The translations under genes and the position numbers were made by a program. The notes beneath the pieces were generated by a model that was not told where the DNA came from, searched no databases, and saw only the letters and a list, made by a program, of their open reading frames with translations. Shown in pieces: positions 2,231 through 16,040 of a stretch of 21,487 nucleotides of DNA (positions are counted from its first letter, which is position 1; the number at the start of each line of letters is the position of its first letter). The DNA comes from a virus. The stretch lies in IMG/VR virus record IMGVR_UViG_3300026518_000065, positions 1-21,487 of that record, one strand, 5' to 3'.

Positions 2231-2518
2231 ATGAAAAATAAAGATAATATTATATCCCTTGTAAGCAAAGCTAACGCCGAAAACAAGGAAGATGAAGTAG
2301 GCAAGAAGGATGTCATAGAATTTCTTCAGAGCATAATTGACGATGTTAAAAATGACAAGAGGCTTCCTTTTGATAAGCTGCTAGTTCTTGGGCACACTTG
2401 GGACGAGGATAAATATGGATTTACCCTCTACAGGCACCGGTTGGGTATGTCGGGTTTAGAATCTATAAGCACTATTGAAATGGCTAAAGCCCTGTTCATG
2501 GACGAGATTCTTAATTGA
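2231..2518 (+). CDS. Hypothetical protein upstream of TerL
   Basis: The product from ATG 2231 is 95 aa. GGGGTGG upstream gives a plausible ribosome site, whereas the earlier in-frame ATG at 2210 has none. It is an acidic, helical, soluble protein (KDNIISLVSKANAENKEDE, then IEFLQSIIDDVKNDKRLPFD, then a TWDEDKYGFTLYRHR segment). No family is recognised. Its TGA stop overlaps the TTG start of TerL by 3 nt, so the two are likely translationally coupled. Position just before TerL is where a small terminase subunit often lies, but no HTH motif is visible and a better TerS candidate lies at 5924. Confidence 0.65.
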   Translation: MKNKDNIISLVSKANAENKEDEVGKKDVIEFLQSIIDDVKNDKRLPFDKLLVLGHTWDEDKYGFTLYRHRLGMSGLESISTIEMAKALFMDEILN

Positions 2519-4437
2519 CTGACACTATTGAAACAAGAGTAGTTTATGTTGACGAAATGGGTATGCCCGCTGCGTGGTGGGGGTTGTGTAAAGAGGAAGC
2601 TCTGGACGACCCCGTTTGGCGTCCGTTCGCATTAGATGAAAAGGGGGACGTTTATTCCCCTGCTTTTTTGCCCCTACCTGGCTCTCAGATGCTATTTCTG
2701 GAGTGTCCGGTATTTGAGGCGTTATACCATGGGAATAGGGGACCGGGGAAAACAATAACCCTTCTTATGGACTTCGCAAGGGACGTAGGCAAAGGATATG
2801 GCAGTTCCTGGCGGGGGATACTGTTCAGACGGCATTTTAAAGACCTTGATGACGTTGTTAAAAAGATGGAAGAGTTCTTTCCCAAGATGTTCCCCGGCTG
2901 GAAGTTTCTAAGGTCAAAGTCCGAGTACATGGCGATGTGGCCTACGGGAGAGGCTCTCCTTATACGCCATATACGGGATGAAGACGACTATGCCGACTAT
3001 CACGGGCATGAATACCCCTGGCAGGGATGGGAAGAGCTGACCCAATGGCCTGACGATAAAGTATTTAAACTGATGCAATCCTGTTGCAGATCAGCACAAC
3101 CGGGCATCCCCAGCAGAGTGAGAGCCACAACTAACCCTTCGGGGATTGGCCATTCCTGGGTCAAAAAGAGGTATGACCTCCCTCAGTCTGATGGGCAGGT
3201 ATTAAAACTGCCGGGACAGATGCCAAGGGTGGCTATCAGAGGCTCCTTGCGTGAGAACTTTCTTCTGCTATCTATCCAGCCCCACTATGAGATCATAATT
3301 CAAAATGCCGCCAAGAACCCGGCGCAGGCAAAAGCATGGATAGAGGGGGACTGGAACGTTACTTCCGGGGGGATGTTTGATGACCTGTGGGACCATAAAT
3401 ACCACGTCATACCCAGTATTTCGGTGTCAGATATACCACACTCATGGACAATTACGAGGGCATATGACCACGGCCAAAGCCATCCGTTTAGTGTCGGGTG
3501 GTGGCTTGAATCCTCTGGTGAGGGTATCATTGTGGATGGCGTAACCATAGGCAATGTCCGGGGTGATCTTATATTATGGATGGAGTGGTACGGCACCACA
3601 GGGGAGGAGAACACTGGTATCAGAATGGCCGCTTCCAAGATAGCTCAGGGGATTTTAGACCGTGAAGATGACGCTGGTGTGAGGGGCAGGGTACTCGATG
3701 GCCCTGCTGATACTGAAATATATACCAAAGTTGCCACTGGTACAGGCCGTGGTCCATCTGATGATATGGAGGATGTTGGGGTGACGTGGGAAAGAGCCGA
3801 CAAGTCCAGAGGGTCAAGGAAAAGAGGATGGGAGAAACTCAGGACTCTGATGTCAAATGCTATACCGGGAAAAGACGGCACAAGGGAGCTGCCCGGACTG
3901 TTTATCTGTAAAAATAACAAACACTGGCTTGAATTAGCCCCCTCTGTTCCCCGTAGTGAAGCCGATCAGGATGAGATACCTGCTAACTATGAGGACCATT
4001 GTCTGCATCCAGACACTCTTGTTCCTACTTCTGAGGGGGTATTCCCGATTAAGAAGCTAGTCGGAAAATCCGACAAGGTTATGACTGTAGACGGGTGGAT
4101 GCCGTATTACGGCGCAAGACTGACGCGCAAAGACACAGAAATGGTGGAAATCACCTTCTCTGATGGCTCTACCCTCGTATGTACGCCAGACCATAAAATT
4201 ATGACAGGATTAGGCGGTATGGTGGGGGCATCATGTTCGGTCGGGCGGTGTTTGTACGGCATAGATAGACGAGTTGTGCGAGTAAAGCCCGTAGAAAGCA
4301 GTGATTCTTACTGTCTAACGGTTCCATCCCATGGTCATTTTATGCTTTCTAACGGGGTGTTCGTCTCTAATTGCCTTGATATGACCAGATATAGGGCTAC
4401 TTGGGAAGTAATGGGCATGTTCAGGAAGGGGTTTTGA
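2515..4437 (+). CDS. terL: Phage terminase large subunit with intein
   Basis: This is the packaging motor ATPase and nuclease that cuts the concatemer and pumps DNA through the portal. Walker A is GNRGPGKT (residues 73-80). The likely Walker B/catalytic acids are E173-E174 (GWEEL), and the coupling motif is ATTNPSG (204-210). The RNase H-like nuclease shows D318 (YDHG) and D395 (LDGPAD). The final motif is split: D494-H495, then a 124-aa intein (496-619), then C620-L621-D622-x-x-R-Y. The precursor is 640 aa and the spliced enzyme 516 aa, a usual TerL size. The start is TTG at 2515, overlapping the preceding TGA; ATG at residue 15 is the alternative. The portal follows after about 75 bp. Confidence 0.93.
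   Translation: MTDTIETRVVYVDEMGMPAAWWGLCKEEALDDPVWRPFALDEKGDVYSPAFLPLPGSQMLFLECPVFEALYHGNRGPGKTITLLMDFARDVGKGYGSSWRGILFRRHFKDLDDVVKKMEEFFPKMFPGWKFLRSKSEYMAMWPTGEALLIRHIRDEDDYADYHGHEYPWQGWEELTQWPDDKVFKLMQSCCRSAQPGIPSRVRATTNPSGIGHSWVKKRYDLPQSDGQVLKLPGQMPRVAIRGSLRENFLLLSIQPHYEIIIQNAAKNPAQAKAWIEGDWNVTSGGMFDDLWDHKYHVIPSISVSDIPHSWTITRAYDHGQSHPFSVGWWLESSGEGIIVDGVTIGNVRGDLILWMEWYGTTGEENTGIRMAASKIAQGILDREDDAGVRGRVLDGPADTEIYTKVATGTGRGPSDDMEDVGVTWERADKSRGSRKRGWEKLRTLMSNAIPGKDGTRELPGLFICKNNKHWLELAPSVPRSEADQDEIPANYEDHCLHPDTLVPTSEGVFPIKKLVGKSDKVMTVDGWMPYYGARLTRKDTEMVEITFSDGSTLVCTPDHKIMTGLGGMVGASCSVGRCLYGIDRRVVRVKPVESSDSYCLTVPSHGHFMLSNGVFVSNCLDMTRYRATWEVMGMFRKGF
4000..4371 (+). other. Mini-intein (Hint domain) within TerL
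   Basis: This is an in-frame protein-splicing element of 124 aa, residues 496-619 of the precursor. Block A starts with nucleophile C496 (CLHPDTLVPTSEG). Block B contains TPDH (T557, H560). Block F is the YCLTVPSHGHFMLSNG segment (C600 at the usual Asp/Cys position). Block G ends VFVSN, followed by +1 Cys C620. The penultimate residue is Ser618 rather than the usual His. No homing-endonuclease domain (LAGLIDADG or HNH) fits in 124 aa. The exteins join as DH-CLDMTRY, the conserved last nuclease motif of TerL. This insertion point explains why the element has stayed precise. Confidence 0.9.
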
Positions 4438-4512
4438 TGAGAGATAGACAATTAGGGCTTTCTAGTGATACTATAAGAACAAATTGCCGGTACATAATGC
4501 GGAGTGAGACAT

Positions 4513-5922
4513 TTGCCCCTTAAAAAAGACCCTAGTGATCCATCCTCAACCTCAATGGCTTGGGACTTGATGGCCCCCAAATGGGATATGATGAATACCA
4601 TTTTGGCGGGTACTCAGGCTATGCGTGACTCTGGTGAGGTATATCTGCCAAGGCATGATAGTGAGAGTGCCTCCAACTACGATGAAAGGTTGAATAGGTG
4701 TACCCTGTTCAACATGACTGAACTCACCTTATGCACATGGGTAGGTAAACCATTCTCAGACCCGGTTAAGCTAAATGAGGATGTGCCTCAGGAAATAATA
4801 AATATTACAGACGACATCGATCTTCAGGGCGATAGCATCACAGTGATGGCTAGGGACTGGTTCAGAGAAGCACTATCTAAATCTTTCGCTCATATTCTTA
4901 TTGATATGCCCAGCATCCCCGATTCTATTAATGGACAGCAGCGGACAAAGGCCGATGACCTGAGAATGAATATCAGGCCATATTGGTCCCTGATTAGACC
5001 AGAAAACGTCATATTTGCTGAGTCTCAGGTGGTAAATGGGCAGGAGATGTTAACCCATGTTCGGATACGTGAAACCCTTGTAAAGAGAGTTGGTTTTGTA
5101 GAGACGTTGGTAGAGAGAATACGCATACTTGAACCCGGCACCTTCTCTGTGTGGGAACTCACCCCGAAGAGCAAAAGCTCCAAGAAGATGGTCTGGTCAG
5201 AGGTTGAGTCTGGGCAGACCGGACTCAATGAGATTCCCCTAGTCACCTTTTATGCTGACAGATCAGGACTTATGGAGGGTAAACCCCCATTAGAGGATTT
5301 GGCACATCTGAACATCCGCCATTGGCAGTCAACAGCAGACCAGATAAATATCCTTACAGTGTCAAGGTTTCCTATGCTTGCTGTGTCAGGTGCCGCTGAT
5401 CAGACTGGGGATACAATGGTTATTGGACCGAGGCAATTACTCGGTACGAAAGATTCTGCCGGAAGGTTTTACTATGTAGAACACTCTGGAAGGGCTATCG
5501 CTTCAGGTAAAGAGGACTTGGCTGACCTTGAAGAACAGATGGCCTCCTACGGCGCAGAGTTTCTTAAACGGGCAACGGGTAATCAGACCGCCACCGGCAG
5601 AGCATTGGACTCCTCTGAAGCCATGAGTCCATTGCAGGATATGGTAGTCCGTTTCACCGAGTCCATGAATGAGGCTCTTGACCTTACTGCAAAATGGCTT
5701 AATCTGGAGTCAGGGGGCACTGTTGATATTGCTACTGACTTCTCAATATCTGGTCAATCAGATGCAGAACTTAGAACCCTTACAGAAGCCAGAAAAAATG
5801 GCGACTTGTCACAGGTGGATTTCCTTAGAGAGCTTAAAAATCGCGGGATACTTAGCGATGACTTTTCTATCACACAAGGTGTTATAGATTCTGCTGTTGA
5901 CCCAAATGCGACCTTGACTTAA
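4513..5922 (+). CDS. Portal protein (DUF4055-type)
   Basis: The portal forms the dodecameric DNA entry ring at one head vertex, docking terminase and later the connectors. The product is about 469 aa. The N-terminal half is typical of DUF4055 portals: WDLMAPKWDMMNTILAGTQAMRDSGEVYLP, the FNMTELTLCTWVGKPF segment, and ENVIFAESQVVNGQEMLTHVRIRE. The C-terminal helical part has LEEQMASYGAEFLKR followed by SSEAMSPLQDMV. The start is taken as TTG 4513, with GGAG 8 nt upstream; the GTG at 4504 lies inside that site and is less likely. It follows TerL and directly precedes the HTH gene (1-nt gap). Confidence 0.9.
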   Translation: MPLKKDPSDPSSTSMAWDLMAPKWDMMNTILAGTQAMRDSGEVYLPRHDSESASNYDERLNRCTLFNMTELTLCTWVGKPFSDPVKLNEDVPQEIINITDDIDLQGDSITVMARDWFREALSKSFAHILIDMPSIPDSINGQQRTKADDLRMNIRPYWSLIRPENVIFAESQVVNGQEMLTHVRIRETLVKRVGFVETLVERIRILEPGTFSVWELTPKSKSSKKMVWSEVESGQTGLNEIPLVTFYADRSGLMEGKPPLEDLAHLNIRHWQSTADQINILTVSRFPMLAVSGAADQTGDTMVIGPRQLLGTKDSAGRFYYVEHSGRAIASGKEDLADLEEQMASYGAEFLKRATGNQTATGRALDSSEAMSPLQDMVVRFTESMNEALDLTAKWLNLESGGTVDIATDFSISGQSDAELRTLTEARKNGDLSQVDFLRELKNRGILSDDFSITQGVIDSAVDPNATLT

Positions 5923-5923
5923 C

Positions 5924-6535
5924 ATGGGCCGAAATTACAGGTATAAAAGAGGTATGGACCCCAGAAAGAAAGGCAAACTACCCAAAAGACGTAGGCTTCT
6001 AACCGTATCTGAGAAAAAGAGAAAGATATTTCTTATAGCCTTGGAAGAGTGCGGGCAGGTTAATCAGGCGGCGTCCATAGCCGGGTACTCAAGCTCTGCC
6101 GCGCTAAGAGCCTATAGGGCTAAGGATGAAGAATTTGCCAAGGCTTGGGATGTGGCCGAGAGTGTGGCTTTTGACATCCTTGAGGATGAGGCACACAGGC
6201 GAGCTGTTGAGGGTGTTATGGAGCCGGTGTTCCATCAGGGCGAGATAGTTGGGCATAGGGTTAAGTATAGTGATGCCCTGTTAACCACCCTTCTAAAAGC
6301 TAATAACCCGGATAAATATAGAGATAATATAAAAGTCGATCAGGAGGTGAAGGGTAACTTTGGTGTAGCTATACTTCCGTCAACACACACTAGTGCATTA
6401 GACTGGGAGAGCCGGGCGGCTATTGTGCATGAATCCCAAGATGCTCTGATGTCTGATGTCGATGATAAACCAGATGAATCAATTATAGATGGCGAATATG
6501 AAGAAGAACAGAACACGGAGATGACAAGAGGATGA
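5924..6535 (+). CDS. HTH protein, probable terminase small subunit
   Basis: The 203-aa product has a very basic N-terminus (KKGKLPKRRR). A helix-turn-helix follows: a KIFLIALEECGQVNQAASIA helix pair, then GYSSSAALRAYRAKDEEFAKAW. Next comes a segment typical of phage TerS/phBC6A51-like HTH proteins (EDEAHRRAVEGVMEPVFHQG, then KYSDALLTTLLKANNPDKYR). The C-terminal 70 residues are acidic and probably disordered. It would bind the packaging site and load TerL. Its place after portal, rather than before TerL, is unusual. Start ATG 5924 is one base after the portal stop, with no good ribosome site, so coupling is likely. Confidence 0.7.
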   Translation: MGRNYRYKRGMDPRKKGKLPKRRRLLTVSEKKRKIFLIALEECGQVNQAASIAGYSSSAALRAYRAKDEEFAKAWDVAESVAFDILEDEAHRRAVEGVMEPVFHQGEIVGHRVKYSDALLTTLLKANNPDKYRDNIKVDQEVKGNFGVAILPSTHTSALDWESRAAIVHESQDALMSDVDDKPDESIIDGEYEEEQNTEMTRG

Positions 6536-6744: not shown

Positions 6745-6790
6745 TAACAAAACAAACTGAAAAGGACTAAACGATGGCATTTAAATTTTC
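6745..6790 (+). repeat. 46-bp perfect direct repeat, copy 1
   Basis: The 46 bases 6745-6790 are identical to 7125-7170. They cover the untranslated leader, the AAAAGGA ribosome site, the start codon and the first codons (MAFKFS) of two adjacent genes. This marks a tandem gene duplication, or recent gene conversion of the leader, and recombination between the copies would delete the first gene exactly. Confidence 0.95.
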
Positions 6791-7127
6791 AGAGAACCAG
6801 AGAGTGTTTGATATAACAATAGTCCCTGAAGACCTCAGGGTAGCGTTTGAAGAGACGACTGGCTATTACGAATCATTTCCAGAGGATGATGACAATACCC
6901 CCCATAACAAATGGCAAGAGTGGCGAATCAAAGAGGACATGTGGCCTCTCGTAGTTAAATATGAGTCTATGCAGGTGGAGTTGGAAAAGCTAAGGCAGTA
7001 TAAGGACGAGGTGTCTCATAATATTATGCGTAAAGGGATAGAGGATAGATTGACCGGTAAAACACAATGTAAAGTGTTTGATAACATGATCTTTAAAGGT
7101 CAATACAAGAAACAAGCTATATCATAA
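6774..7127 (+). CDS. Short scaffold-like paralogue
   Basis: The 117-aa product begins MAFKFSENQRVFDITIVPED. The next gene begins MAFKFSENETVADISVVPQE. Both then share a PLV-x2-YE-x5-L-K segment (WPLVVKYESMQVELEK here, KPLVNAYEGVSSALAK there). After that this protein diverges and stops, with a basic end, while the neighbour continues as a long coiled coil. It is therefore an N-terminal-only relative of the scaffold. It could regulate scaffold assembly, cap it, or be a decaying duplicate; its reading frame is intact and has a good ribosome site (AAAAGGA, 8 nt). Confidence 0.7.
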   Translation: MAFKFSENQRVFDITIVPEDLRVAFEETTGYYESFPEDDDNTPHNKWQEWRIKEDMWPLVVKYESMQVELEKLRQYKDEVSHNIMRKGIEDRLTGKTQCKVFDNMIFKGQYKKQAIS

Positions 7128-7170
7128 CAAAACAAACTGAAAAGGACTAAACGATGGCATTTAAATTTTC
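7125..7170 (+). repeat. 46-bp perfect direct repeat, copy 2
   Basis: Identical to 6745-6790. It overlaps the stop codon of the short paralogue (the TAA at 7125-7127 is the first three bases of the repeat) and supplies the ribosome site and start of the scaffold gene. A shorter relative of the leader (AAAAAGGAATAAACGATGGC) precedes the gene at 9210. Confidence 0.95.
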
Positions 7171-7978
7171 CGAAAACGAAACAGTAGCAGATATTTCTGT
7201 GGTACCACAGGAGTTTCAGTCTCATTATGCAGAAGCAGAGGTGGATGGTAAAAAGGTATTCACTATCAGTGATGCGTCCAAGCCTCTGGTTAATGCTTAT
7301 GAGGGTGTAAGCTCTGCACTAGCTAAAGCTCAATCTGATAAAAAGCAGGCAAGCGATGAATCCGCTAGGCGGCGTAATGCCTTGAAAGAGTATGATTCCA
7401 TTTATGATAACCTAGGTCTGTCAGATGATAACCGGACAGTTGAGGGGATTCTGAACCATATTAACGACCTGATGGATCAGGTTAAGGGCGGCAAGGAGGT
7501 TAAAATTAACCTCGATAAGATTAATAGTGAAAACGCCAAGCGCATGGAAGAACTTGCCGCAGCTAAAGACGAGAAATATAATAAGCTTCAGGCGTCATTG
7601 GTTAAGCATATGATCACAGAAGCCGCCACGTCCAGCATTGCTAAAGAGAAGGGGTCAGTGGAGCTTCTGCTTCCTATTGTTTCTAACCAGTGTAAGGTTG
7701 TGGAAGAGGATGATGGGTACACCGTGCGTGTTGTGGATTCACAGGGGGATGTACGGTCAGATGGACTTGGAGGCATGATGGGCATAGATGGACTTATCAA
7801 AGAACTGAAGGGGTCTAACGTGTATGCGCGGGCCTTTGACAGCGAAACTCCATCAGGGTCAGGCTCCACACCGGGTGCCTCCAATCCGCCCATGTCTGCT
7901 CAGAGGTTCAGTCAGACCAAGGATATATCTGCCACTGACAAGATTGCACAGGGGCTTGCTAAACGGAGCAGGGGTTGA
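7154..7978 (+). CDS. Capsid scaffolding protein (probable)
   Basis: The 274-aa product lies directly before the major capsid gene, the usual place for scaffold. It is rich in charged helices with coiled-coil character over residues ~45-155 (SSALAKAQSDKKQASDES, then NSENAKRMEELAAAKDEKYN). A compact C-terminal region and a flexible tail rich in Ser/Gly/Pro (~227-250) follow. No protease motif is visible. It would fill the procapsid and guide coat assembly. The first ~35 residues are shared with the preceding short gene. The family is inferred from position and composition rather than from a signature. Confidence 0.75.
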   Translation: MAFKFSENETVADISVVPQEFQSHYAEAEVDGKKVFTISDASKPLVNAYEGVSSALAKAQSDKKQASDESARRRNALKEYDSIYDNLGLSDDNRTVEGILNHINDLMDQVKGGKEVKINLDKINSENAKRMEELAAAKDEKYNKLQASLVKHMITEAATSSIAKEKGSVELLLPIVSNQCKVVEEDDGYTVRVVDSQGDVRSDGLGGMMGIDGLIKELKGSNVYARAFDSETPSGSGSTPGASNPPMSAQRFSQTKDISATDKIAQGLAKRSRG

Positions 7979-8178: not shown

Positions 8179-9150
8179 ATGGCTACAGTTACCCTTACTG
8201 AATCAGCAAAGCTGTCTCAGGATTCACTCGTTCAGGGTGTTATCGAAAATGTTATTACAGTTAACCGCATGTTTGAAGTTCTGCCTTTTGACGGGATTGA
8301 AGGTAATGCTATCTCTTACAATCGTGAAAATGTCCTTGGTGCAGTTGCCACTGTTGGTATTGGCGATACAGAGGGCGTTATCGGTTCCAGTGCTTCCGCT
8401 GGTACTAACCTTACAGCTCGGCAGGCTGCTAAGAACGCCGCAACCTTTACCAATGTAGCAAGCTCACTGACGACCATCTTGGGCGATGCAGAAGTGAATG
8501 GACTCATTCAAGCTACCCGCTCCAACATCACTGATCAGACTGCCACCCAGATTGCTTCTAAAGCCAAGTCTGCTGGTCGTAGCTTCCAGAGTCAGTTGAT
8601 CACAGGCGATGGCACAAACAACACCTTCTCAGGTCTGATTTCACTCTGTGTATCTGGTCAGACTGTGGGTGCCACTGGTGCTAATGGTGACGCTCTGTCC
8701 TTTGCTACTATGGATGAGATGCTTGATCTGGTTGTTGATAAAGATGGTGATGTTGATTACATTGCTATGCACGCCCGCACCATGCGGAGTTTCCGGGCAT
8801 TGCTTCGGGGCCTCGGTGGGGCGAGTATTGCTGATGTTGTTGAACTGCCAAGTGGTTCTACCGTTCCAGCCTATAATGGTGTACCTATCTTCCGTAACGA
8901 CTATGTGCCTACCAATCAGACCACTGGTACAACGACCACTACCACGTCTATCTTTGCGGGTAACATGGATGATGGTTCCCGGTCACACGGCATTGCCGGG
9001 CTGACTGCTGCTACTGATGCCGGTATTCAGGTTGAAGATGCCGGGGTATCCGAAACCAAAGATGAGCGCATCTGGCGCATCAAGTGGTATTGCGGATTGG
9101 CATTGTTCTCTGAAAAAGGACTTGCTTGCGCAACAGGTATCACTAACTAA
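8179..9150 (+). CDS. Major capsid protein
   Basis: The 323-aa product forms the icosahedral shell. It begins MATVTLTESAKLSQDSLVQG and has features of HK97-fold coat proteins of this type: a Gly/Ala/Thr-rich N-terminal arm, the LITGDGTNNTFSGLISLC segment, a conserved central P/A-domain stretch (MHARTMRSFRALLRGLGG, then YNGVPIFRNDYVPT), and a C-terminal ERIWRIKWYCGLALFSEKG. Codon use shifts here to more regular, highly expressed-type codons than in neighbours. The ribosome site AGAGGAG is 8 nt before ATG. An intrinsic terminator follows. No N-terminal cleavage region (delta domain) is evident, consistent with a separate scaffold. Confidence 0.9.
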   Translation: MATVTLTESAKLSQDSLVQGVIENVITVNRMFEVLPFDGIEGNAISYNRENVLGAVATVGIGDTEGVIGSSASAGTNLTARQAAKNAATFTNVASSLTTILGDAEVNGLIQATRSNITDQTATQIASKAKSAGRSFQSQLITGDGTNNTFSGLISLCVSGQTVGATGANGDALSFATMDEMLDLVVDKDGDVDYIAMHARTMRSFRALLRGLGGASIADVVELPSGSTVPAYNGVPIFRNDYVPTNQTTGTTTTTTSIFAGNMDDGSRSHGIAGLTAATDAGIQVEDAGVSETKDERIWRIKWYCGLALFSEKGLACATGITN

Positions 9151-12774: not shown

Positions 12775-13581
12775 ATGCGTAATCGCATAAATATAAAACC
12801 CGGATTTGAATTAACACCGCGCAGAGATATTGCCGATAGGTATAATCTCCTTGCCCATTCGTTTTTTCGTAGAACGGATGTTGTCGCTTACGACTCCACT
12901 GTTGCGTCCTTCATTAAAGATCGTGGTATTGACGTTGGCAGAGTCGCTGGCGGTGGTGTAGCTCATAACGCGATTGAAGTTGAAAATCCGAAAACGAATA
13001 CGATAAAGCAGTCTATCGTTTTTCGGTTTAAAGCAACTGCTTATGGAAGTACTCTTTACGGAAGTAGTTTATTATTAGCTAATAAAGACCAATTTGGGCC
13101 ACATGATAATTGGGATACAGGCCTTAGGTGGTATGTAGGGGCGGATAGCTGGAATTCTGCGCAATTACTGATTAATGATTCAAGTCTGCCATCAAGATGG
13201 GCTTATGATAATCAATATCATACGATTGTACTTACTTGGGATGGTGTCGCAGGCATTGCAAGATTTTTCCTTGACGGCAGGTTAATCACAGAAAACCTCT
13301 CTTCAGGAACTCTTCTGTCGCGAAAAGACCAATCGACAGTAGATGCAACACAAAAAGCGTTTCCTTACAGAACAAGTACGTCATGGGCCGATGGTAATGC
13401 AGAATTATACTTTAATTTCCATGATGAATTGCCTTATGACCTCGCATTGGAAATATCAAAAAATCCCTATATTCTTGTAAAACAACGCAGACGGTTTTTT
13501 GGGATGCCTGTGGCGAGCGGGGGCGTTGCTTTCCAACCGGCATGGGCATATAATGCTAATACATTGATAGGTGGTTTATGA
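12775..13581 (+). CDS. LamG / concanavalin-like adhesin
   Basis: The 268-aa product has a LamG-type jelly roll over residues ~70-230: SIVFRFKATAYG, a substrate-loop region, then WAYDNQYHTIVLTWDGVAGI, and ARFFLDGRLITENLSSGTL. The segment LALEISKNPYILVKQRRRFF after it is the usual end of phage LamG proteins. The last 25 residues form a short exposed tail. It probably binds glycans or is part of a virion appendage. AAGGA is 8 nt upstream of ATG. Its stop overlaps the fibre start as ATGA. Confidence 0.75.
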   Translation: MRNRINIKPGFELTPRRDIADRYNLLAHSFFRRTDVVAYDSTVASFIKDRGIDVGRVAGGGVAHNAIEVENPKTNTIKQSIVFRFKATAYGSTLYGSSLLLANKDQFGPHDNWDTGLRWYVGADSWNSAQLLINDSSLPSRWAYDNQYHTIVLTWDGVAGIARFFLDGRLITENLSSGTLLSRKDQSTVDATQKAFPYRTSTSWADGNAELYFNFHDELPYDLALEISKNPYILVKQRRRFFGMPVASGGVAFQPAWAYNANTLIGGL

Positions 13582-16040
13582 GCTTTAAAAAGAATACAGC
13601 AGTTACAGGGTTTCCAGTAGGGCTAGTTAGCGCGACTGACGGGTCTGCTATAACTACGGGAACGCCGGTAGGATATTATCTGCTTGATGGGGGAACTCAG
13701 ACCGCCATAGCAGATGTCACTCCTGTGCATGAGGGTAATGGGATGTGGACCTTTAATCTAACTGCCGCAGAGATGAACGGTGATATAGTGGGGCTTACCT
13801 TCACCCATGCCTCTGCTATCACGGCACATTTCACGATTAAAACAGAGGTAACGACCCCATCAGACCTCAATAACTTTAACCCTGCGACAGACACGGTGGC
13901 TACTGTAACAAATTTAACTAATCTGCCCAGCATACCTACAAACTGGATTACCGCCGCAGGTATTGCTGCTTCCGCATTTAATGGCAAGGGTGATTGGAAT
14001 ATTGGCAAGACGGGATATAGTATATCAGGCACTAAGACCACCCTTGACGCTTTAAATGACATCGCCGCTACAGCCATTGTCTCTGCCGGAGCTATTACTA
14101 CCCTATCAGGAAAAGTTACCAATGTGGGAACTGTGGATACTGTAACCACGAACACGGATATGCGAGGAACAGATGGGGCTAATACAACCGCACCGGATAA
14201 TGCTTCTATCGCCGCCATTTTGACCGACACTGGTACGACAATTCCCGCCCAGATCACTGCTTTAAATGACTTTAACCCCGCTACTGACACGGTGGCTACG
14301 GTAACAAATTTAACTAATCTGCCCAGCATACCTACAAACTGGATTACCGCCGCAGGTATTTCAGCCTCAGCACTCAACGGTAAGGGCGATTGGAACGTTG
14401 GCAAGACGGGCTACACTTTAACCCAGACTTTCCCTACAAACTTTGCCGACATGGCAATCACAGCTACTACAGGTAAGGTTACGGTAGGAACTAACAATGA
14501 CAAGACGGGGTATAGCATCTCAGGCACAAAAACCACCCTTGATGCTCTTAATGACTTCGACCCCGCATTAGATACGGTAGCTCATGTCACACTGGTTGAC
14601 ACTACCACTACTAATACAGATATGCGAGGCACAGATAACGCGAATACCGTGGCACCGGATAACACGTCTATAGCATCTATCCTTGTTGACACGGGTACTA
14701 CTCTAGATACGAAACTGAATGATATACAAGGTGGCACGTTCTCTTCTGCTACAGACTCTCTTGAGGCTATTAGAAATAGAGGCGATGCCGCATGGACAAC
14801 AGGTGCAGGTGGAACCCCTCCTCAATTATTACAAAGCACCACTATAGCAACCTTGGCCTCTCAGACCAGCTTTACTCTTACTGCCGGGTCTGCTGATGAT
14901 AGTGCATATAATGGGGCTGTTGTTGTAGTCACAGACAGCGTCACAAGCACACAGAAGGCCGTGGGGGATGTGTTATCATATACGGGTGCTACCAAGACCA
15001 TCACGCTATCTTCAGACCCCGGCATATTTACTATGGCCGCAGGGGATACGATAGATGTTATTGCTAATGCCTCATCTGCCCCGTCTGCCTCTACAGTGGC
15101 TAGTGCCGTGTGGGAAGAATCCACCGCCGGGCATGTGACTGCTGGAACCTATGGTAAGTCTGTCGCAGATGTCGAGGTAGACACAAGCACGACAATTCCT
15201 GCGCAGATCACAGGCTTAAATAACTTCAACCCTGCTACTGACACGGTGGCTACAGTAACTAATCTGACTAATCTGCCCAGCATACCTACAAACTGGCTAA
15301 CAGCCGCTGGTATCAGTGCCGGAGCATTTAATGGCAAGGGTGATTGGAACATTGGCAAGACGGGCTACACTTTGTCCCAGACTTTCCCCACAAACTTCGC
15401 TGATCTATCAATCACCGCTACAACAGGTAAGGTTACGGTCGGGACTAATAGTGATAAAACAGGGTACAGTATCTCAGGTACAAAAACCACCCTTGATGCA
15501 CTGAATGACATAGCAGTCACATCTCTAAACAATTTTGACCCTGCGACTGATACTGTGGCCCATGTTACTCTGGTTGACACGACTACAACCAACACTGATA
15601 TGCGAGGGACTGATGGTGCAAACACTGCGGCTCCTGATAATGCTTCTATCGCCGCAATACTGACTGATACAGGCACAACCCTGCCAGCACAGATCACGGC
15701 TCTGCATAATTTTGATCCGGCCACGCAGACTGTGGATATTGGCAAGATAGCTGGGAACAGTGCTGCATCAACCCGGTTAGCTCTGAGTGCTAGTCAGATC
15801 ATACCATTCACAGTTAGCAGTGCCACCTTTACGCCCACGGTCACAGACTTTGAAGCCTCTGACATAACAGAGGCTACCACAGATCATTTTAACGGCAGGA
15901 TTATCATTTGGACCACAGGAGCCTTAACTGGACAGGCAACGTCAATATATGCATATGTTCTGTCTAGTGGTAAAGGCAAGTTCACTGTAGTAGGAATGAC
16001 TGAGGCACCAGCCAACGGGGATACTGGAGTCATAGTCTAA
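13578..16040 (+). CDS. Large repetitive fibre protein, 820 aa
   Basis: The N-terminal ~90 residues form an Ig-like or BppU-like domain (VTGFPVGLVSATDGSAITTG). The body is a mosaic of repeated modules: DTVATVTNLTNLPSIPTNW three times, NTDMRGTD three times with APDNASIAAILTDTGTT, and TGYSISGTKTTLDALND three times. Two further beta domains lie at ~400-520 (SADDSAYNGAVVVVTD) and at the C-terminus (FEASDITEATTDHFNGRIII). The whole is Thr/Asn/Ala-rich with few charges, like trimeric fibres. It lies between the two tail-terminator genes, so it may be a neck or head whisker rather than a tail-tip fibre. The domain order is inferred by eye. Confidence 0.8.
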   Translation: MSFKKNTAVTGFPVGLVSATDGSAITTGTPVGYYLLDGGTQTAIADVTPVHEGNGMWTFNLTAAEMNGDIVGLTFTHASAITAHFTIKTEVTTPSDLNNFNPATDTVATVTNLTNLPSIPTNWITAAGIAASAFNGKGDWNIGKTGYSISGTKTTLDALNDIAATAIVSAGAITTLSGKVTNVGTVDTVTTNTDMRGTDGANTTAPDNASIAAILTDTGTTIPAQITALNDFNPATDTVATVTNLTNLPSIPTNWITAAGISASALNGKGDWNVGKTGYTLTQTFPTNFADMAITATTGKVTVGTNNDKTGYSISGTKTTLDALNDFDPALDTVAHVTLVDTTTTNTDMRGTDNANTVAPDNTSIASILVDTGTTLDTKLNDIQGGTFSSATDSLEAIRNRGDAAWTTGAGGTPPQLLQSTTIATLASQTSFTLTAGSADDSAYNGAVVVVTDSVTSTQKAVGDVLSYTGATKTITLSSDPGIFTMAAGDTIDVIANASSAPSASTVASAVWEESTAGHVTAGTYGKSVADVEVDTSTTIPAQITGLNNFNPATDTVATVTNLTNLPSIPTNWLTAAGISAGAFNGKGDWNIGKTGYTLSQTFPTNFADLSITATTGKVTVGTNSDKTGYSISGTKTTLDALNDIAVTSLNNFDPATDTVAHVTLVDTTTTNTDMRGTDGANTAAPDNASIAAILTDTGTTLPAQITALHNFDPATQTVDIGKIAGNSAASTRLALSASQIIPFTVSSATFTPTVTDFEASDITEATTDHFNGRIIIWTTGALTGQATSIYAYVLSSGKGKFTVVGMTEAPANGDTGVIV
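13872..15370 (+). repeat. ~150-bp in-frame repeats of the fibre gene
   Basis: Near-identical blocks lie at about 13872-14020, 14268-14416 and 15222-15370. Other repeated blocks (around 14143, 14607, 15592 and around 14428, 15379) are interleaved. Conservation at DNA level, including runs such as CTAATCTGCCCAGCATACC, points to recent duplication or homogenisation. Repeat-mediated length change is expected. Confidence 0.9.

Follow-up and report, generated by a model that had tools for sequence, protein, structure and literature searches.

A class 1 mini-intein without an endonuclease at a recurrent site in the terminal nuclease motif of a phage large terminase

The large terminase subunit (TerL) of cyanophage Mic1 carries an intein in its nuclease domain, for which the authors proposed a role in the control of packaging (PMC7156551). 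In mycobacteriophages, a survey reported TerL inteins at seven sites, all of them in the ATPase domain, and for several of these terminase inteins both splicing and cleavage of the empty site were demonstrated (PMC5050341). As for the nuclease, the TerL of G20c binds metal through D294, D347, and D429, which are indispensable, and H427 and D428 also contribute (PMC5389553). The site described here lies in the terminal nuclease motif, at the junction DH/C (the slash marks the insertion point), and a literature search, with most subscription journals outside its reach, found no paper on this site as such.

We analyzed a virus record of 21,487 bases, referred to here as the window, which we read as a head-and-tail module (Table 1). 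The terL gene was recognized by its match to the PHROG terminase large subunit (E = 2.7e-26), by a score above the cut-off for Pfam Terminase_6N, and by a P-loop, GNRGPGKT, conserved in the alignment with phage TerLs. In fold comparison with crystal structures, the model of the precursor resembles the solved TerLs of D6E, Sf6, T4, and HK97; its product thus combines the P-loop ATPase and the RNase H-like nuclease of a TerL. A tblastn search with the protein matched 628 phage records. The small-terminase-like gene is located downstream of the portal gene and not ahead of terL, an unusual order that is the same in a relative, L001 (IMG/VR 3300023310_000036). Two adjacent genes (6774-7127 and 7154-7978) code for proteins that both begin with MAFKFSEN..., perhaps as partial tandem duplicates, and L001 has this pair too. 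Last, the 820-aa product of 13578-16040 has long repeats within its sequence (GKGDWNIGKTGY..., TTNTDMRGTD...) and is presumably a structural protein of repetitive type.

Table 1. Features of the intein-containing terL gene and of selected neighboring genes in the window
Feature	Coordinates	Strand	Remarks
TerL (large terminase subunit)	2515-4437	+	TTG start, 640 aa, single uninterrupted frame
N-extein	2515..3999	+	TerL residues 1-495; ATPase domain and most of the nuclease domain; ends ...YEDH
Asp318, candidate first catalytic acid	3466..3468	+	Invariant; ends strand 312-318 in model; tentative assignment
Asp399, candidate second catalytic acid	3709..3711	+	Invariant; precedes short helix in model; tentative assignment
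Glu493-Asp494-His495	3991..3999	+	5' half of EDHxxDxxRY; conserved in intein-free relatives
His495	3997-3999	+	Last N-extein residue
Mini-intein	4000..4371	+	124 aa, class 1, without endonuclease; residues 496-619, between His495 and Cys620
Block A, CLHPDTLVPT	4000..4029	+	Begins at Cys1; identical in L001
Block B, CTPDH (Thr62, His65)	4180..4194	+	T62 and H65 invariant in same-site alignment
Block F, SDSYCLTVPSHGHFMLS	4300..4350	+	First 16 residues identical in L001; aligns with gp41-1 C-terminal block
Block G, NGVFVSN (Ser123-Asn124)	4351..4371	+	N124 invariant; penultimate Ser, not His
Cys620	4372-4374	+	First C-extein residue
C-extein	4372..4434	+	Cys620 (+1 nucleophile), Asp622, Arg625, Tyr626, and C-terminal tail; D622, R625, and Y626 invariant
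Asp622, candidate third carboxylate	4378-4380	+	Invariant; in last helix of model
Portal	4504-5922		Window gene
Small-terminase-like protein	5924-6535		Window gene
Major capsid protein	8179-9150		Window gene
Tape measure protein	19356 to window end

The element that interrupts this TerL belongs to the intein family. NCBIfam intein_Nterm scores 30.6 bits (cut-off, 24.5) across residues 496 to 564 and intein_Cterm 18.9 bits (cut-off, 15.6) across residues 599 to 620, and the intein alone matches Pfam Intein_splicing with an E value of 9e-6, yet under Pfam's own cut-off. A phmmer search against PDB sequences matched it to the DnaE, gp41-1, and NrdJ-1 inteins. The AlphaFold2 model of the 124-aa element, built from an input alignment of eight same-site inteins, has a Hint fold with a mean pLDDT of 96.8, and the top PDB matches by Foldseek are all inteins, with Npu DnaE first (TM score of 0.87; up to 0.89 by query length), followed by NrdJ-1, Ssp DnaE, and gp41-1. 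The model of the whole precursor is poor in this region (pLDDT of <50 for most of residues 494 to 617) because a single aligned sequence shares the intein, and only its TerL part was used. The continuous reading frame would also suit an insertion domain of the nuclease, specific to this lineage and retained in the mature protein, but the intein models above their cut-offs, the Hint fold, and a join that fits the intein-free motif exactly make such a domain extremely improbable.

The residues required of a class 1 intein are in place. The codon of Cys1 occupies 4000-4002, block B has the TxxH motif, the C-terminal residue is Asn, the +1 residue is Cys, and the two flanks together give a host protein free of interruption. 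Across an alignment of nine same-site mini-inteins, Cys1, Asp5, Thr6, Thr62, His65, and Asn124 are invariant. Cys105 occupies the block F position usually taken by Asp or Cys, and many same-site inteins have Cys there too. The penultimate His, a usual although not obligatory trait of class 1, is replaced by Ser123, as in 7 of 51 same-site inteins. We did not take this His as defining, since splicing exceptions are known: the Npu DnaE intein, which splices fast, has a penultimate Ser as well.

Other intein types were considered and rejected. A class 3 intein lacks the N-terminal nucleophile and has a W-C-T motif, whereas Cys1 is present here and Cys105 in block F is insufficient by itself. A split intein encoded by two genes does not agree with the single continuous ORF. 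No in-frame or nested endonuclease is present, as the intein has only 124 aa and its other forward frames carry stops. Across the whole window we found no HNH motif, and the ten other window proteins revealed no second intein.

The first-pass annotation of this DNA, made from the letters alone, had proposed a mini-intein in TerL, and the NCBIfam models, the modeled Hint fold, and the splice residues all agree with it; its borders, its numbering, the extein join DH-CLDMTRY, and the predicted spliced length of 516 aa were exact. It had also claimed that the intein splits a conserved nuclease motif, a view open to contradiction by homologs without DHxxDxxRY at this point. This too was borne out, as the motif is present in all the intein-free homologs that we examined: EDHxxDxxRY runs uninterrupted across the exact join in 80 of 80 intein-free IMG/VR relatives and in all 14 intein-free phage TerLs. 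The intein therefore breaks up a conserved motif, the terminal one of the TerL nuclease. The residue after DH varies among the intein-free relatives; Kaya and L088 have Cys there, and the enzyme thus tolerates a Cys at this position.

In an alignment of 23 TerLs, D318, D399, D494, H495, D622, R625, and Y626 are invariant. From the order of the conserved acids, their invariance, the fold, and the parallel with G20c, D622 is the best candidate for, and a plausible choice as, the third metal ligand, an RNase H-type carboxylate. In the hhalign comparison of the TerL family profile with G20c TerL the terminal motif was not aligned, and a sequence-level search with the profile found no solved TerL.

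L001 has an intein of equal length at the same site and was the sole match in a scan with an alignment of the intein plus its flanks. Protein identity between both phages is 94% in the extein and 68% in the intein, with a C-extein (helix 618-629 in the precursor model) that is identical. By the Nei-Gojobori method, which is rough at such divergence, dN/dS is ~0.16 in the intein and 0.04 in the extein, and dS is similar in both (~1.5 and ~1.2, respectively) and near saturation. There are no indels between the two inteins, and block A, block F, and the CTPDH motif in block B are the same in both. Similar dS, low dN/dS, and a frame kept intact over a long time indicate that the intein was inherited together with its host gene, and we read the comparison as that of an element that is maintained and transmitted vertically. 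Purifying selection on the intein, as on the extein, supports the idea that splicing is under selection and that the element must splice, and activity in splicing is very likely, judging from these sequences. A dead or dying intein, with splicing lost and a TerL defective in its nuclease, could be suspected from the penultimate Ser; it is very unlikely given the low dN/dS, the absence of indels, the intact catalytic residues, and the identity of blocks A and F together with full conservation of the C-extein in L001.

The DH/C junction is a recurrent intein site. When IMG/VR was scanned with patterns for this junction, 12 further loci had CLHPDT, another had PDT, and in 62 loci EDH was followed by GDT; the upstream frames of most loci hold a P-loop, and some, such as L104, are partial. 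After removal of duplicates and unresolved ends and the addition of MW202478 and the window, the comparison set comprised 51 inteins. Counted over IMG/VR and the phages of GenBank, roughly 50 different inteins use this junction. An HNH motif was seen beside or inside 35 of the 51, and an HNH_3 domain was confirmed in two same-site inteins. Mini-inteins without HNH number 10, the one in the window included. On the splice-domain tree, the mini and HNH states changed at least six times, and L116, a mini-intein of another TerL, clusters with the inteins of L001 and the window (SH-aLRT, 90). The eight same-site mini-inteins aligned with that of the window are 29 to 68% identical to it, L001 being the highest and the others at most 46%. 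Within the TerL subfamily of the window itself, we found no HNH-bearing intein.

Larger DH/C inteins show an arrangement in which the middle ~200 codons code in another frame for an HNH_3 endonuclease nested in an intein ORF that stays open (L104, L105, L107, L111-L113, L117, L120, L122, L127, L129, L131, L144, L148, L149, L151, L156, L164, L168, L173, and L175). The nested frame is +2 except in L117, where it is +1. With HNH in the +2 frame, the intein frame is free of stops in 24 of 26 loci versus 1.8 expected when the synonymous codons of HNH are shuffled; with HNH in the +1 frame, 11 of 12 loci are fractured and contain stops. For phage methylases that lack a splicing domain, HNH insertions out of frame have been published (PMC11855218).

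In Lactobacillus phage CL2 (L003), Brochothrix phage BL3 (L005), and rat-gut TERL3 (L004), a split intein at DH/C leaves TerL fractured, in CL2 with an HNH gene between the two intein halves. All three records annotate a truncated TerL; the last catalytic motif is located in a small separate ORF in BL3 (gp3, 98 aa) and is unannotated in CL2. In L019 (tuull) and L020 (AQKL99), TerL is annotated as two pieces. The family phrog_28563 (98 positions, function unknown) matches window positions 4270-4395, that is, the C terminus of the intein plus the TerL tail, and BL3 gp3 has the same makeup; the family probably represents fractured TerLs by their C-terminal piece.

Taken with the fold and the splice residues, this distribution makes it very probable that the element is a class 1 mini-intein from a homing lineage at the DH/C site of TerL, which has lost its endonuclease and splices constitutively. 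Its ancestor would have been an intein with an associated HNH homing endonuclease that targeted the DH/C junction of phage large terminases, entering there because of the high conservation of the DNA that encodes the nuclease motif. Later, its endonuclease would have been lost, as suggested by the HNH of the wider family. Splicing, which we expect to be fast, would take the standard course of an acyl shift at Cys1, transesterification to Cys620, cyclization of Asn124, and an S-to-N shift, so joining EDH to CLDMTRY and completing the RNase H-like nuclease site. The simplest account of the comparisons is a homing intein family that is aimed at this conserved stretch of coding DNA and has lost its endonuclease repeatedly.

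The first-pass annotation had gone further and suggested that conditional splicing times headful or cos cutting. Under such regulation, a response to redox, metal, temperature, or the state of the DNA would withhold the nuclease, with the ATPase presumed to be working already. The insertion inside an invariant nuclease motif is compatible with this, as are retention without a homing endonuclease across a large synonymous divergence, the five cysteines of the intein, among which Cys105 of block F could pair with Cys1, and the same proposal made by the authors of Mic1 for its two-intein TerL (PMC7156551). The idea of packaging control is thus not new. Against it, the sequence gives no direct sign of regulation, and two of the five cysteines (Cys79 and Cys84) are not conserved in L001. 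Relatives as a rule have no intein, so a regulatory intein is not needed, and mini-inteins can persist regardless because precise deletion is rare. The preference for the site is explained by homing: many other inteins, mostly linked to HNH, use DH/C, which is what site targeting predicts. In addition, a precursor with an inserted Hint domain may fail to assemble the motor at all, a block already argued for ATPase-domain TerL inteins (PMC5050341). We consider a regulatory intein unlikely, and a shade less likely still that splicing in the infected cell limits the rate or depends on a signal and so holds the packaging nuclease back until late, with the recurrence at DH/C reflecting selection for a switch and not homing only. 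If splicing were regulated, it would be a posttranslational switch on the packaging nuclease.

In environmental phages, inteins make heavy use of the terminal nuclease motif of TerL. In practice, terL genes that carry these inserts appear in annotations as truncated or split, as in BL3, CL2, and rat-gut TERL3; the insert should therefore be removed and the pieces joined for annotation and phylogenies.

Compared with known systems, Npu DnaE, gp41-1, NrdJ-1, and VidaL (PDB 4kl5, 6qaz, 8ubs, and 6vgv) share the Hint fold and are among the best structural matches, but they come from other hosts and sites and are naturally split, whereas the intein of the window is contiguous. The closest systems by position are MW202478, BL3, CL2, rat-gut TERL3, and the IMG/VR loci L104-L178, with the same insertion point and mostly a +1 Cys; L109, L116, L139, L150, L165, L172, and MW202478 have mini-inteins like that of the window, and the difference from the rest is the HNH gene that most of them carry and the split (fractured) inteins of BL3 and CL2. 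The Mic1 TerL (MN013189) is similar in having a small intein with an N-terminal Cys and a +1 Cys in the same terminal nuclease motif. It differs in that the insertion is one residue downstream, DHL/CDALRY versus DH/CLDMTRY in the window (read from the Mic1 TerL, L179 1-2859), in the second, large intein of its ATPase domain, and in belonging to a different TerL family. The mycobacteriophage inteins TerL1-a to -e, TerL6-f, and Pham3880-g are likewise terminase inteins at functional motifs (PMC5050341), but their seven sites are all in the ATPase domain, many with an endonuclease, and the intein of the window, in the terminal nuclease motif, matches none of the sites a to g. It adds a very short mini-intein at a site unrecorded in that survey (PMC5050341).
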